Positions 11,974 to 15,935 of a stretch of 64,000 nt of DNA are shown here, piece by piece. Location of the stretch: contig AP025582.1 of the NCBI GenBank assembly GCA_022846075.1, forward strand, positions 744,001-808,000, written 5' to 3'. Positions within the stretch are counted from its first letter, which is position 1, and each line of letters opens with the position of its first letter. Below the pieces are notes generated by a model. That model was not told where the DNA came from and searched no databases. It worked only from the letters and a program-made list of their open reading frames with translations. A program made the position numbers and the translations under genes. Source of the stretch: Oscillospiraceae bacterium. GTDB lineage: Bacteria > Bacillota > Clostridia > Oscillospirales > Oscillospiraceae.

Positions 11974-12012
11974 CAAAAAAACTCCGCCGGTTTTTCACCG
12001 GCGGAGCTTTTT
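11974..12012. terminator. bidirectional terminator between cysK and rrf2
   Basis: CTCCGCCGGT (11982-11991) pairs with ACCGGCGGAG (11997-12006). An A-tract on the left and a T-tract on the right serve both convergent genes. Confidence 0.85.
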
Positions 12013-12434
12013 CATTCATCGCACTTCTCGTGGTACCGTGTCACCAGATCGGCCAGCGTGATGTGGTCCACCACCCCGGCCACGGCCTCCTGTATCTTGG
12101 CCCACACCTCCACGGTGACGCAGCGGTCCATCCGCGCGCAGCAGCTTCCGTCCGTGGCGCAGCTCACCGGGGCCAGGCTACCCTCCAAAACCCGCAGGAT
12201 CTCACCCACGGTGTACTCGGTGGGCGGACGAGTCAGCAAGTAGCCCCCTCCGGCCCCCCGGACGCTGCGGACCAGGCCGGCCCGGCCCAGCTGGGTGACG
12301 ATTTGTTCCAGATATTTGTCTGAGATCTCCTGCCGCTCGGCGACATCCCGCAGGGGGACCGGCTGGCCGGAGCCCGTGAGGGCAATGTCCAGCATCAGCC
12401 GCAGGGCGTACCGGCCCTTGGTGGATATTTTCAT
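12012..12434 (-). CDS. Rrf2-family regulator with IscR-like cysteines
   Basis: A 140-residue winged-helix regulator. The N-terminus MKISTKGRYALRLMLDIAL and ISDKYLEQIVTQLGRAGLVRSVRGAGGGY are the canonical Rrf2 DNA-binding region. Residues ~95-110 contain SCATDGSCCARMDRC. Its Cys-x5-Cys and Cys-x5-Cys spacings resemble the three [2Fe-2S]-ligating cysteines of IscR and differ from the cysteine-poor CymR type. It may therefore sense Fe-S or sulfur state. ATG 12434 is preferred because GGGAGGG lies 6 bases upstream. Confidence 0.88.
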   Translation of the reverse strand: MKISTKGRYALRLMLDIALTGSGQPVPLRDVAERQEISDKYLEQIVTQLGRAGLVRSVRGAGGGYLLTRPPTEYTVGEILRVLEGSLAPVSCATDGSCCARMDRCVTVEVWAKIQEAVAGVVDHITLADLVTRYHEKCDE

Positions 12435-12513
12435 GACGGTCCCTCCCGACACCTTGTTTTCCTATCGTATTGATATCATATCATAATTCTGTGAAATTTC
12501 AAGCAAAAAGAAC

Positions 12514-12542
12514 TTGACTTTAGCGCCAAAAAGTGCTAAAGT
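12514..12542 (+). promoter_or_regulatory. promoter of the aroF-tyrA leader with inverted repeat
   Basis: TTGACT (12514-12519), 17-bp spacer, TAAAGT (12537-12542). An inverted repeat CTTTAGCGC (12518-12526) / GTGCTAAAG (12533-12541) fills the spacer and may be an operator. Confidence 0.7.
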
Positions 12543-12569
12543 AACGGACAGAAAGCAGGTGACGCCTCC

Positions 12570-12644
12570 ATGGTCAACCAGAACCGGCATGGGTATTGCT
12601 ATTATTACCGCTATTGCGATAGCGGTTTTTTGTCATGCCCATGA
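12570..12644 (+). CDS. tyrosine-rich leader peptide of the aroF-tyrA operon
   Basis: A 24-codon reading frame, MVNQNRHGYCYYYRYCDSGF then LSCP and stop, has five Tyr codons among residues 9-15. AGCAGGTGA lies about 8 bases upstream. The Tyr codons at 12594-12614 run into the left arm of an intrinsic terminator (12607-12631). A ribosome stalled for lack of charged tRNA-Tyr would therefore cover that arm and allow read-through. This is the classic logic of amino-acid attenuation. The downstream genes make tyrosine precursors. Not tested; too short for ordinary gene callers. Confidence 0.75.
   Translation: MVNQNRHGYCYYYRYCDSGFLSCP
12607..12631 (+). terminator. first attenuator terminator, inside the leader peptide
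   Basis: ACCGCTAT (12607-12614) and ATAGCGGT (12619-12626) form a perfect stem with loop TGCG, followed by T6. It overlaps the last Tyr codons of the leader peptide. Confidence 0.75.
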
Positions 12645-12670
12645 CCGGCCCTGCCGTCACTGAATCGTAG

Positions 12671-12704
12671 ACGCGGCAGCCCGATTGGGGCTGCCGCGTT
12701 TTTT
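12671..12704 (+). terminator. second attenuator terminator upstream of aroF
   Basis: CGCGGCAGCCC and GGGCTGCCGCG pair around GATT-G, followed by T6 (12699-12704). CTGCCG at 12651-12656 could instead pair with the left-arm CGGCAG, giving an antiterminator alternative. Confidence 0.8.
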
Positions 12705-12730
12705 CTTGATCTGAGAAAGGAGAACATAGT

Positions 12731-13747
12731 ATGGTCGTCATTATGAAGCCGGGCTTCAGCCAGGAGGAATTAAACAGCGCCATCAAGGAGATGGAGCGGG
12801 GCGGGGTCAACGTGATGATCTCCCGGGGCTCCGAGACTACCATCCTGGGAGCCGAGGGCAACGCCCAGGGTATCGACATCGAGAAGATGCAGGCCCTTCC
12901 CGGCGTGGAGCGGGTCATGCGGGTCAGCGAGCCCTACAAGAAGGCCAACCGGAAATACCACCCCGACGACAGCGTGGTGGAGATCGCCCCCGGCGTATCC
13001 GTGGGCGGGGAGCGGCTGCTGGTGGTGGCGGGGCCCTGCTCGGTGGAGAGCGAGGAGCAGATCACCGCCGTCGCCCGGGACGTGAAGGCCGACGGGGCCC
13101 AGGCCCTCCGGGGTGGCGCCTTCAAGCCCCGCACCTCTCCCTATGCCTTCCAGGGCATGGGGTACGGCGGGCTGGACCTGCTGGAAAAGGCCCGGATCGC
13201 CACAGGTCTGCCCGTGGTCACCGAGCTGATGTCCACCGATGATATCGACTACTTTGTGGAGCATGTGGACGTCATCCAGATCGGGGCCCGGAACATGCAG
13301 AACTTCGACCTTCTGAAGCGGCTGGGAAAGACCACCAAGCCCATCCTTCTCAAGCGGGGGCTCTCCGCCACCATTGAGGAGTGGCTCATGTCGGCGGAAT
13401 ACATTCTGGCCGGGGGGAACCCCAACGTCATCCTCTGCGAGCGGGGCATCCGCACCTTTGAGACCTTCACCCGCAACACCCTGGACCTGTCCGCCGTGCT
13501 GGCGGTGAAGCGGCAGTCCCACCTGCCGGTGATGGTGGACCCCTCCCACGCCAGCGGCCAGGCCTGGATGGTGGAGCGGATGAGCCTGGCGGCCATCGCC
13601 GCCGGGGCGGACGGCCTCATCATCGAGGTGCACAACGACCCGGTCCACGCCCTGTGCGATGGGCAGCAGTCCATCACCCCCGCCCAGTTCAAGGACCTGA
13701 TGGACCGGGTGGGCCGGGTGGCGGAGTGCGTGGGGAGGACGATTTGA
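12731..13747 (+). CDS. aroF: 3-deoxy-7-phosphoheptulonate synthase (type I-beta)
   Basis: DAHP synthase joins phosphoenolpyruvate and erythrose-4-phosphate, the first step to aromatic amino acids. The 338-residue protein has an N-terminal ~65-residue ferredoxin-like regulatory domain (MVVIMKPGFSQEELNSAIKE). The catalytic barrel follows, with VVAGPCSVESEEQ, GAQALRGGAFKPRTSPYAFQG, IGARNMQNFDLL and MVDPSHASG. This fits the Thermotoga-type enzyme, which is feedback-inhibited by tyrosine. AAAGGAG lies 8-9 bases upstream of the ATG. Expression is probably controlled by the Tyr leader in front. Confidence 0.95.
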   Translation: MVVIMKPGFSQEELNSAIKEMERGGVNVMISRGSETTILGAEGNAQGIDIEKMQALPGVERVMRVSEPYKKANRKYHPDDSVVEIAPGVSVGGERLLVVAGPCSVESEEQITAVARDVKADGAQALRGGAFKPRTSPYAFQGMGYGGLDLLEKARIATGLPVVTELMSTDDIDYFVEHVDVIQIGARNMQNFDLLKRLGKTTKPILLKRGLSATIEEWLMSAEYILAGGNPNVILCERGIRTFETFTRNTLDLSAVLAVKRQSHLPVMVDPSHASGQAWMVERMSLAAIAAGADGLIIEVHNDPVHALCDGQQSITPAQFKDLMDRVGRVAECVGRTI

Positions 13748-13908: not shown

Positions 13909-14769
13909 ATGTCAAAAAAGTTTGTCATTGTCGGTCTAGGTTTGATCGGCGGCTCCATGGCCCTGGCCCTCAAGGGCTTTGAGGATTTTGAGATCGTGGG
14001 CGTGGACGTGTCCGAGCCCACCCTCCGCTTTGCCCGGGAGCACGGGGTGGCCGACGTGGTCACCAACCGGGCCCGGGAGGCGGTGGAGGGGGCGGACGTG
14101 GTCATGCTAGCCCTCCACCCCCAGGGCATCCTGGACTTCCTGGAGGAGCACCGGGACAGCTTCAAGGCCGGGTGCCTGGTCACCGACGTGTGCGGCGTGA
14201 AGTCCGCCGTCATGGAGGGGGCCAAGTGCCTGCCCCCCCAGGTGGACTTCATCGGCTGCCACCCCATGGCGGGCACCGAGTTCTCCGGCGTGGAGCACGC
14301 CTTTGCCGAGATGTTCCAGGGCTCCCACCTGATCCTGACCCCACGGGAGGACAGCACGGAGGAACACCTGGCCCTGCTGGAGCGGCTGGCCCGGCGCATC
14401 GGCTGCCAGGACGTAGTACGGACCACCCCAGGCCAGCACGACGCCATCCTGGCCTACACCAGTCAGATGATGCACATCATCGCCGTATCGGTCTGTGACG
14501 ACCCCAGCCTCTTTGCCTGCAAGGGCTACGAGGGCAGCTCCTTCCGGGGCTGCACCCGGGTGGCGGCCCTGGACGTGGGGCTGTGGACCCAGCTCTTTTC
14601 CCTCAACGCCCCGGCGCTGGTGGGATGCCTGGACACCCTCATTGGAAATCTCAGCGCCTACCGGGAGGCCATCGCCTCCGGGGACCGGGAGGCCCTGGCG
14701 GGGAAGCTGGCCTGGTCCGCGGACCGGAAGCGGAAGATGGACCTGCCGGGGCCGGACCTGCTGGGCTGA
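13909..14769 (+). CDS. tyrA: prephenate dehydrogenase
   Basis: Oxidatively decarboxylates prephenate to 4-hydroxyphenylpyruvate in tyrosine synthesis. The 286-residue protein has the NAD-binding Rossmann motif GLGLIGGS (residues 9-16), DVCGVKSAV, and the substrate-loop signature FIGCHPMAGTEFSG. A C-terminal helical dimerization domain follows, with LAYTSQMMHIIAV and GSSFRGCTRVAALD. No ACT domain is present, so regulation probably lies with AroF and the leader. The first ~12 codons use AT-richer synonymous codons than the rest, next to the odd duplicated start upstream. Confidence 0.93.
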   Translation: MSKKFVIVGLGLIGGSMALALKGFEDFEIVGVDVSEPTLRFAREHGVADVVTNRAREAVEGADVVMLALHPQGILDFLEEHRDSFKAGCLVTDVCGVKSAVMEGAKCLPPQVDFIGCHPMAGTEFSGVEHAFAEMFQGSHLILTPREDSTEEHLALLERLARRIGCQDVVRTTPGQHDAILAYTSQMMHIIAVSVCDDPSLFACKGYEGSSFRGCTRVAALDVGLWTQLFSLNAPALVGCLDTLIGNLSAYREAIASGDREALAGKLAWSADRKRKMDLPGPDLLG

Positions 14770-14816
14770 ACGGGGCCCGGCCCAAGAGACCCGGGGGCCC
14801 TCCCAAAAACAGAAAG

Positions 14817-14853
14817 AGACCGCCCGCCGGATCCTGCCGGCGGGCGGTCTTAT
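14817..14853. terminator. terminator between tyrA and LCP gene
   Basis: GACCGCCCGCCGG (14818-14830) pairs with CCGGCGGGCGGTC (14837-14849). T-rich sequence is better on the minus-strand side, so it mainly serves the LCP gene. Confidence 0.7.
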
Positions 14854-14855
14854 GG

Positions 14856-15935
14856 TTATTTTCCCTGCACCATGCGGACCATGTCCCGGGTCACATCGGT
14901 GGTATAGGGGTTAAGGCAGGAATTGATGATCTCCAGGCTGGCCTCGATGTCCAGGGCGTAGCAGTCCCGGACCCCCTCGAAGGTGACGGTGCCGTCCCCC
15001 GGCAGGGTGGCGGTGGTCAGATCGGCGAAGTCAAAGCCCAGGGCGGGCTCCACGAACCAAAGCATGTTGGCCAGGGACAGGTCGGTCTTTACATACTGGG
15101 AGAAGATCTCGATATAGCTGCCCACCTTCTGGGGATTGGAGAGGACCTTCTTGGCGATGGTCTTGATCATCTCCTGCTGGGTCCGGGTGCGGCCGATGTC
15201 CGCGTCGGGGTAGGCGTCGTAAATATTGTTGGGATAGGTGCCCGGCCCGTCGGAGTTCTTCCGGCAGCGGACCACGGCCAGAGCTTGTTTGCCGGTGAGG
15301 TGCTGCATCCCCGGCTCGAAGTGGATGTGCAGGTCCTGGTCGGGGGCGTCATAGCTCATGTGGACGGGCACGTTGAAGTCCACGCCGTCCACCGCGTCCA
15401 CAATGGCCACGAAAATCTTGGTGTCGATGAGGATATAGTGGTCGATGGGGATGCCCAGCACCTCGCTGACGGCGTCCTTCAGCTCGCCGATGCCGCCGCC
15501 GGGCAGGGCGTATGCGTTGCCGTTGGAGTAGGCGGCGTTGAGCTTGTGGTATTCCCAGCCCTCCCGGTCCACCAGGGTGTCCCGGGGGACGGAGACCAGG
15601 CCCATCTTCTGGTTGGCCGTGTCATAGGTGCATACCATGATGGTGTCCGCGCTGCCGCTGACCTGGTCCTCCGCGGCCAGCAGGAAGGTCCAGGTGCTCT
15701 CCTTGCGCTGGAGGCCCTTGCTCTCATCCTCCTCGGTGTCCGGGTTGTCCGTGACGACGGCGGCGGAGGGCTGGGCCGGGATCTCTGCGGTGCTGGGCCG
15801 TTTGGCGGCCAGCTTATAGGCGCAGAAGAGGACCACGATGATGGCGGAGAGGACCACAAGGGCCCGGTAAAGCCCTCTCCCCAGCCGCCGAAGAGGAGAG
15901 GGCTGTTTGCGGTTTTGTCTGGATGCCACGGGCAT
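14856..15935 (-). CDS. LytR-CpsA-Psr (LCP) family phosphotransferase
   Basis: LCP enzymes attach teichoic acid or other undecaprenyl-linked glycopolymers to peptidoglycan on the outer face of the membrane. The 359-residue protein has a short basic N-terminus, one membrane anchor (~25-45, ALVVLSAIIVVLFCAYKLA) and an extracytoplasmic LCP domain. Typical elements are ADTIMVCTYDTANQKMGLVSVPRDT, HKLNAAYSNG, HLTGKQALAVVRCRKN and DIGRTRTQQEMI with conserved arginines. The ligated polymer is unknown. It is monocistronic, convergent with tyrA. Confidence 0.9.
   Translation of the reverse strand: MPVASRQNRKQPSPLRRLGRGLYRALVVLSAIIVVLFCAYKLAAKRPSTAEIPAQPSAAVVTDNPDTEEDESKGLQRKESTWTFLLAAEDQVSGSADTIMVCTYDTANQKMGLVSVPRDTLVDREGWEYHKLNAAYSNGNAYALPGGGIGELKDAVSEVLGIPIDHYILIDTKIFVAIVDAVDGVDFNVPVHMSYDAPDQDLHIHFEPGMQHLTGKQALAVVRCRKNSDGPGTYPNNIYDAYPDADIGRTRTQQEMIKTIAKKVLSNPQKVGSYIEIFSQYVKTDLSLANMLWFVEPALGFDFADLTTATLPGDGTVTFEGVRDCYALDIEASLEIINSCLNPYTTDVTRDMVRMVQGK

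Follow-up and report, generated by a model that had tools for sequence, protein, structure and literature searches.

A conserved tyrosine-codon leader peptide ahead of aroF-tyrA in Oscillospiraceae as a probable ribosome-mediated attenuator

Introduction

Attenuators of the E. coli trpL and pheL kind follow a scheme in which regions of the leader RNA pair as 1:2, 2:3 and 3:4; T-boxes rely on direct binding between tRNA and mRNA and do so without translation. The closest experimental case to the locus analysed here is AroR of C. glutamicum, which lies 5' of the aroF operon and whose leader codons (Phe-Tyr-Phe) cause a stalling that relieves attenuation upon Phe limitation, Tyr availability being without effect according to a review (PMC11802643). 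In a 2005 survey, RNA-level control of tyrosine genes is by T-boxes, and attenuators are given for His, Thr and Phe (PMC1262725). Further candidates are the uORFC-13-1 motif before Acholeplasma aroF, described as a uORF candidate with promoter, terminator and at least one aromatic codon (PMC8632094), and the predicted His leader peptides of bacilli hisS*/hisZ (PMC2965389).

Here, we describe an aroF-tyrA operon with a Tyr-codon leader in a stretch of 64,000 nucleotides (the window) from an Oscillospiraceae bacterium (contig AP025582.1, positions 744,001 to 808,000; genome of 3.23 Mb in a single contig). Like AroR it has a leader peptide with aromatic codons ahead of a DAHP synthase operon but differs in its Tyr codons, in the operon (aroF-tyrA) and in phylum. 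With the trpL and pheL attenuators (PMC11802643) it shares a leader ORF. Mutually exclusive pairings, another trait of theirs, are predicted here, and it is unlike them in having Tyr codons and a terminator-like hairpin nested both in 1:2 and in the ORF. Its resemblance to uORFC-13-1 lies in a candidate uORF with promoter and terminator ahead of aroF, whereas that motif has Phe codon(s) in a U-run and another structure and taxon. The bacilli His leaders likewise stand for attenuation by leader peptides in Firmicutes, a group that usually has T-boxes, yet concern histidine and genes of the aminoacyl-tRNA synthetase type. The Tyr T-box of Firmicutes also senses tRNA-Tyr charging but is absent at aroF-tyrA. 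We file the locus as a putative variant of the known attenuator class (trp/phe/his type). While the class itself is old, Tyr specificity in Clostridia and a split between Tyr and Phe leaders (see below) are apparently new, neither having been found in the open-licence PMC literature among the matches listed. In this gut bacterium, a relative of Flavonifractor, a familiar style of control appears to act at an unexpected amino acid and in an unexpected bacterial group.

Results and Discussion

Features of the locus, with window coordinates and the evidence for each, are these.

12012-12452, reverse strand: divergent Rrf2-family gene (ORF list and family search)
12514-12542, forward strand: promoter TTGACTTT-N7-AAAAGTGCTAAAGT with the inverted repeat ACTTTAGCGC-CAAAAA-GTGCTAAAGT (motif conservation)
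12570-12644, forward strand: leader peptide ORF of 24 codons, MVNQNRHGYCYYYRYCDSGFLSCP and stop (direct reading; relatives)
12594-12614, forward strand: seven regulatory codons, YCYYYRY, of which five are Tyr (shuffles; 42 leaders)
12584-12596, forward strand: region 1, CCGGCATGGGTAT, the 5' side of an outer helix named P1 (fold; covariation)
12635-12648, forward strand: region 2, the 3' strand of P1, ATGCCCATGACCGG, including the stop codon (fold; covariation)
12607-12631, forward strand: T1, hairpin and U-run within the leader ORF, with Tyr codons in its left arm (terminator scan; fold)
12651-12657, forward strand: predicted antiterminator strand CTGCCGT, partner of the T2 left arm (fold prediction; genus conservation)
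12669-12704, forward strand: T2, strong intrinsic-terminator-like hairpin ahead of aroF (terminator scan; fold)
12731-13747, forward strand: aroF1, DAHP synthase (NF006421, TIGR01361, PF00793)
13909-14769, forward strand: tyrA, prephenate dehydrogenase (PF02153 and PF20463 above cut-offs; NCBIfam prephenate dehydrogenase models match, but below theirs)

An initial annotation of this DNA had proposed a 24-codon frame rich in Tyr, a terminator overlapping the Tyr codons and a second terminator before aroF, and direct reading bears out all three as well as the coordinates given for them: the ORF runs from ATG at 12570 to TGA at 12642-12644 with Tyr codons starting at 12594, 12600, 12603, 12606 and 12612, the T1 stem (12607-12626, followed by TTTTT at 12627-12631) takes up Tyr codons in its left arm, and T2 has a stem at 12669-12701 and a U-run. 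When 12543-12730 was shuffled 5000 times with its dinucleotides kept, five Tyr in seven codons never arose, and this stretch is unique across the six frames of the window. Thus clustered codons for the operon's end product sit in a short leader ORF, as is typical of attenuators. Read in another frame, the same bases are Leu-rich (six of one residue in seven codons), a side effect of the repeated TAT/TAC; a Leu-codon leader in this overlapping frame was rejected, an upstream ATG being open to it in 5 of 42 leaders versus 38 of 42 for the Tyr frame.

For the leader RNA (12549-12745), the predicted fold is more stable than that of any of 200 shuffles (z -6.44), and a large share of this margin is owed to T2. 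As a terminator scan gave six sites in 4 kb on both strands, where shuffles give 2.5 +/- 1.8, a single hairpin alone is unremarkable. An intrinsic terminator is predicted between the leader and the first gene. Since the Rrf2-family gene is divergent and both hairpins come after the promoter, a reading of the two as tandem terminators that serve a gene further upstream is rejected at this locus.

The leader is widely kept in relatives. A search with the aroF protein covered 150 family genomes (match at E <= 1e-60 in 117), and its 30 best aroF loci were used, 28 of them closest to aroF1. An intact Tyr-rich leader is present at 21 of these 28 orthologues, which were selected by protein similarity alone; examples are GYGYYRCYYFSGVFACP, SYYRYYNSGYFAYP and GYSYYRYYDSGIL, each ending at a stop. 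It is missing in intact form at L002, L019, L020, L021, L023, L024 and L028. L002 has a similar leader with N bases and an in-frame stop, and that of L019 looks decayed, retaining RSGFFACP and few Tyr; either may reflect loss or a sequencing error. Adding 12 promoter-found and 10 model-found loci, 22 that are biased towards having a leader, brings the count to 42 of 50, with tyrA in the same locus at 27 of the 28 protein-found and 49 of all 50 loci. The 42 leaders carry two to eight Tyr each (median five) and use both codons (TAT 136, TAC 88) at positions that shift between leaders; judged by sequence, 36 have a Shine-Dalgarno-like match of at least 4 nt at a start codon. The position of the stop codon varies among relatives, some of which stop early.

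A covariance model (R1) with a structure written by hand was built from the 18 of 32 leaders that share one T1 loop length, the set also used for pair counts. Under stricter filters it matches 36 of 250 family genomes, in 19 of 106 genera, and 29 of 30 loci examined adjoin aroF; the thirtieth, L158, lies 5' of a gene for an ABC-transporter substrate-binding protein (PF04392). Across the order (295 genomes) R1 gave nine matches, seven in the family and two weak ones elsewhere (L160, L161), where there is no aroF or tyrA match and which we take as chance. Among 25 loci drawn via tyrA from titled records, mostly metagenome-assembled genomes and some identical to other loci counted, 24 have a plus-strand R1 match upstream of tyrA (E <= 0.04), L203 being the sole exception; three show an extra weak minus-strand match on the palindromic hairpin. 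Flavonifractor plautii ATCC 29863 (L199) has the leader MRRYVGYGYGYYRCYFASGLFACP with its stop, and named Pseudoflavonifractor records have a Tyr leader, too. The closest tyrA among titled records is from Pseudoflavonifractor sp. Marseille-P3106 (88%) and from uncultured Clostridiales/Oscillospiraceae, that of F. plautii being more distant (73%). At L205 (2349-2412) an R1 match lies about 90 bases upstream of tyrA with no aroF start in the stretch searched; tyrA itself may be the direct target of a Tyr leader here.

P1 joins 12584-12596, which spans the first Tyr codon and codons ahead of it, to 12635-12648. For the 24 leaders that have their stop within the 3' strand, cognate strands average -14.9 and permuted ones -12.6 kcal/mol, and in the 15 others (12 early-stop leaders plus L015, L142 and L147) the figures are -19.8 versus -15.9, with 0 of 10,000 permutations reaching the cognate value in either set, although these permutations overstate independence because some sequences are near-identical (e.g. 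L005, L006, L146, L149). Stop codons follow suit: the middle base of TAA/TAG pairs with U in 13 of 16 (three TAA stops are unpaired there), and that of TGA with C in seven of eight and with U in one. A protector pairing of the 1:2 type that encloses the regulatory codons is hence predicted in 24 plus 15 leaders, and P1 is, by such comparison, the best-supported structure of the leader.

The T1 core helix forms six of six pairs in 29 of 32 leaders and five in the remainder; its pair 5 is A-U in 24, G-C in five (one, L018, in doubtful register) and mismatched in three. Out of 31 leaders, 10 have a T1 that scores as a terminator; on this prediction it is a weak one in most relatives. In the 18 leaders of one loop length, the count gave 84.1% pairs; this number of paired cells was matched by 17 of 500 shuffles, and the covariation score by 203 of 500, no higher than shuffles because five of the eight T1 pairs are invariant in that set. 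L027 reads the same AGCGG strand in a different frame, with GAA residues replacing SG, which points to constraint at the RNA level. Many leaders have the common ending SG...CP before their stop, from which one might argue that the peptide acts in trans as a small protein. We regard this as very improbable: the shared residues are accounted for by the helix strands, and genus members stop earlier, yet largely keep the RNA stretch GCCC...CGG.

Given a leader, helices and an operon linkage conserved in this way, we consider it highly probable that the locus is a ribosome-mediated transcription attenuator sensing charged tRNA-Tyr at aroF-tyrA. As for translation, stalling, termination and their order, and the role of T1 in particular, we infer the following. 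Transcription would start after 12542 and a ribosome translate the 24-codon leader. With tRNA-Tyr uncharged, the ribosome would stall on the Tyr codons, cover region 1 and the T1 left arm and keep 12651-12657 available as a partner for the T2 left arm, so that polymerase reads into aroF-tyrA. With tRNA-Tyr charged, it would reach the stop at 12642, where both the antiterminator strand and region 2 lie under its footprint, and T2 would form. In an untranslated leader, T1 could form and end transcription.

The switch was examined by folding. The T2 left arm contains CGGCAG (12674-12679), the complement of CTGCCG (12651-12656), and under a stalled-ribosome mask (A-site codon start plus 13 nt) CTGCCGT at 12651-12657 pairs with this arm before the right arm exists; a mask from the stop codon leaves only T2. 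Boltzmann samples, which are an equilibrium estimate on truncated RNA and not kinetics, put the antiterminator at this locus at 0.99 with a stalled ribosome, 0.99 without ribosome and 0.00 with a ribosome on the stop, the last being built into the calculation, since the antiterminator strand lies within the footprint assumed for the ribosome. The value without ribosome implies that an untranslated leader would escape T2 if T2 acted alone. T1 can deal with this state, which is the reason why we propose that each of the two states has its own terminator. Averages over 13 genus members are 0.71 (stalled), 0.77 (on stop) and 0.40 (free). Unlike this locus, early-stop relatives are mostly predicted to form the antiterminator even with the ribosome on the stop, and in such members of the genus the ribosome would have to be released and P1 form afterwards.

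The initial annotation had CTGCCG oppose the second terminator, a pairing that folding predicts here, that is conserved in the genus and that gave no significant result beyond it. Measured from GCCC, the best duplex with the T2 arm begins at 7-14 nt in 12 of the 13 genus members (at 3 in L114, the exception), and on average the 13 duplexes are stronger than those of mononucleotide shuffles (0 of 1000). The 19 leaders outside the genus are not above shuffles (p = 0.28); tested one sequence at a time, p <= 0.05 is reached in only 1 of 32, which makes that test uninformative; and swapping cognate partners gave p = 0.22 in the genus, 0.22 outside and 0.064 for all. Comparative support for the antiterminator is thus confined to the genus, and these tests leave the case for sensing much stronger than that for switching. 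That Tyr codons and hairpins ought to be kept in close relatives, as the annotation had it, is what we find for the Tyr-rich leader, the T1 helix, the outer helix and the aroF-tyrA linkage. Its reading as a Tyr leader attenuator is supported by this comparison, and the outer helix (12584-12596/12635-12648), the weak T1 in most relatives and the Phe leader of a sister operon go beyond it.

Control might also be exerted via T1 only, with a stalled or trailing ribosome masking T1 and T2 being a leaky second terminator that lacks a true antiterminator. This would fit the overlap of T1 with the Tyr codons, its conserved helix and the antiterminator not being significant outside the genus. We hold it to be unlikely, though deserving of attention, since T1 scored as a terminator in so few leaders (10 of 31) versus a strong post-stop hairpin with U-run detected automatically in 29 of 31 (T2 of L003, L015 and L010 was placed by eye), and CTGCCG is conserved within the genus.

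T-boxes are frequent in the source genome (13 matches, five above the cut-off), which might favour one, or a metabolite riboswitch, ahead of aroF-tyrA. None of the 13 lies within the window: Rfam at gathering score has no match there, the T-box RF00230 included, and at E up to 5 the region 12400-12800 gave four chance-like matches, none of them a T-box or riboswitch. These searches rule out such an element here, leaving it a negligible chance in our view. A T-box does precede tyrS (TIGR00234, 386 bits) in the source genome, with UAC at the expected specifier position in an alignment read by eye. One Clostridia genome hence appears to sense tRNA-Tyr twice, by a T-box at tyrS and by a leader peptide at aroF-tyrA.

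The promoter is sigma-70-like with TG before the -10. Its motif has a single match in the source genome (<=3 mismatches) and one match each in 15 of 16 same-genus genomes, the source genome included (<=2 mismatches). A DNA-binding regulator acting on the palindrome might be the main control, with the leader secondary or vestigial; in line with this, the promoter is kept at aroF1 loci without leader (L020, L021, L024, L028, L122) and the motif also occurs before other genes that look related to aromatic metabolism. We think this improbable: the selection seen on leader codons and helix would not persist in a vestigial leader, and two layers of control could coexist. The palindrome may nonetheless be an operator for a regulator of aromatic amino acid genes. 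With 0-2 mismatches it was seen elsewhere at L100, L105, L107, L123, L124 and L126, before one aminotransferase-like, three substrate-binding-protein-like and one indolepyruvate-oxidoreductase-like gene and tyrA alone (names other than tyrA read from translations).

Returning to the attenuator reading, the source genome has a second DAHP synthase (62% identical) in an operon aroF2-aroB-aroA-aroC-pheA-aroK-aroQ, of which aroF2 and pheA were confirmed by family search (pheA with Pfam PDT and CM_2 above and NCBIfam matches below their cut-offs) and aroB, aroA, aroC, aroK and aroQ were named from reading the proteins. Its leader, MNRTTLTTASFFTFGWARFMSAGYFAMGEKGWTK and stop, has Phe codons and is followed by a terminator-like hairpin (by eye). 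All 18 aroF2 regions examined have pheA and none tyrA. One automatic picker, treating F, Y and W alike and taking the best 12-codon window, was applied to all loci. At 50 aroF1 loci, it counted Y216:F54, with Y above F in 43 and below in six; at 19 aroF2 loci (two too short to show pheA) Y22:F58, with F above Y in 15 and below in two; and at three undivided aroF operons Y11:F12, a mixed leader, with tyrA in three of three, or in two of three after an overlap filter. Taken one by one, many aroF2 leaders do not stand out significantly from dinucleotide shuffles of their own upstream regions, so it is the comparison between classes that carries weight. That leader codon identity tracks the product of the operon is difficult to account for unless sensing is specific to the tRNA.

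A wider scenario, which we put forward tentatively and at somewhat less than even chances, starts from a single ancestor of the DAHP synthase operons (aroF-tyrA-aroB-aroA-aroC-pheA...), in whose leader Phe and Tyr codons were mixed. Duplication of aroF would have given an aroF1-tyrA Tyr sensor and an aroF2..pheA Phe sensor, attenuator codon identity evolving with operon content; and the Tyr sensor would use two terminators, T1 to stop untranslated and T2 to stop fully translated leaders, such that only a Tyr-stalled ribosome lets transcription pass. Two apparent ways of sensing tRNA-Tyr in one genome, together with a Phe leader on the sister operon, would offer a natural test of how the specificity of an attenuator changes once a gene has been duplicated, and of why some gut Firmicutes have leader peptides in place of T-boxes.

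An aroF2 Phe leader at L128 (1695-1799) has an Arg-centred layout (FGWARFMSAGYF) that resembles the YYRYxxSG of the Tyr leader, and Phe and Tyr leaders may be of common descent. Short ORFs also lie 5' of the substrate-binding-protein genes at L123 (G036:C12), L107 (G034:C24) and L158 (G125:C1; PF04392 was searched for L158 alone): that of L123 is Tyr-rich, that of L107 Phe-rich and that of L158 mixed, with terminator-like hairpins by eye. At the other end of the operon, 3' of tyrA, a terminator-like hairpin on both strands (14816-14851) is common to a convergent frame at 14856-15935.
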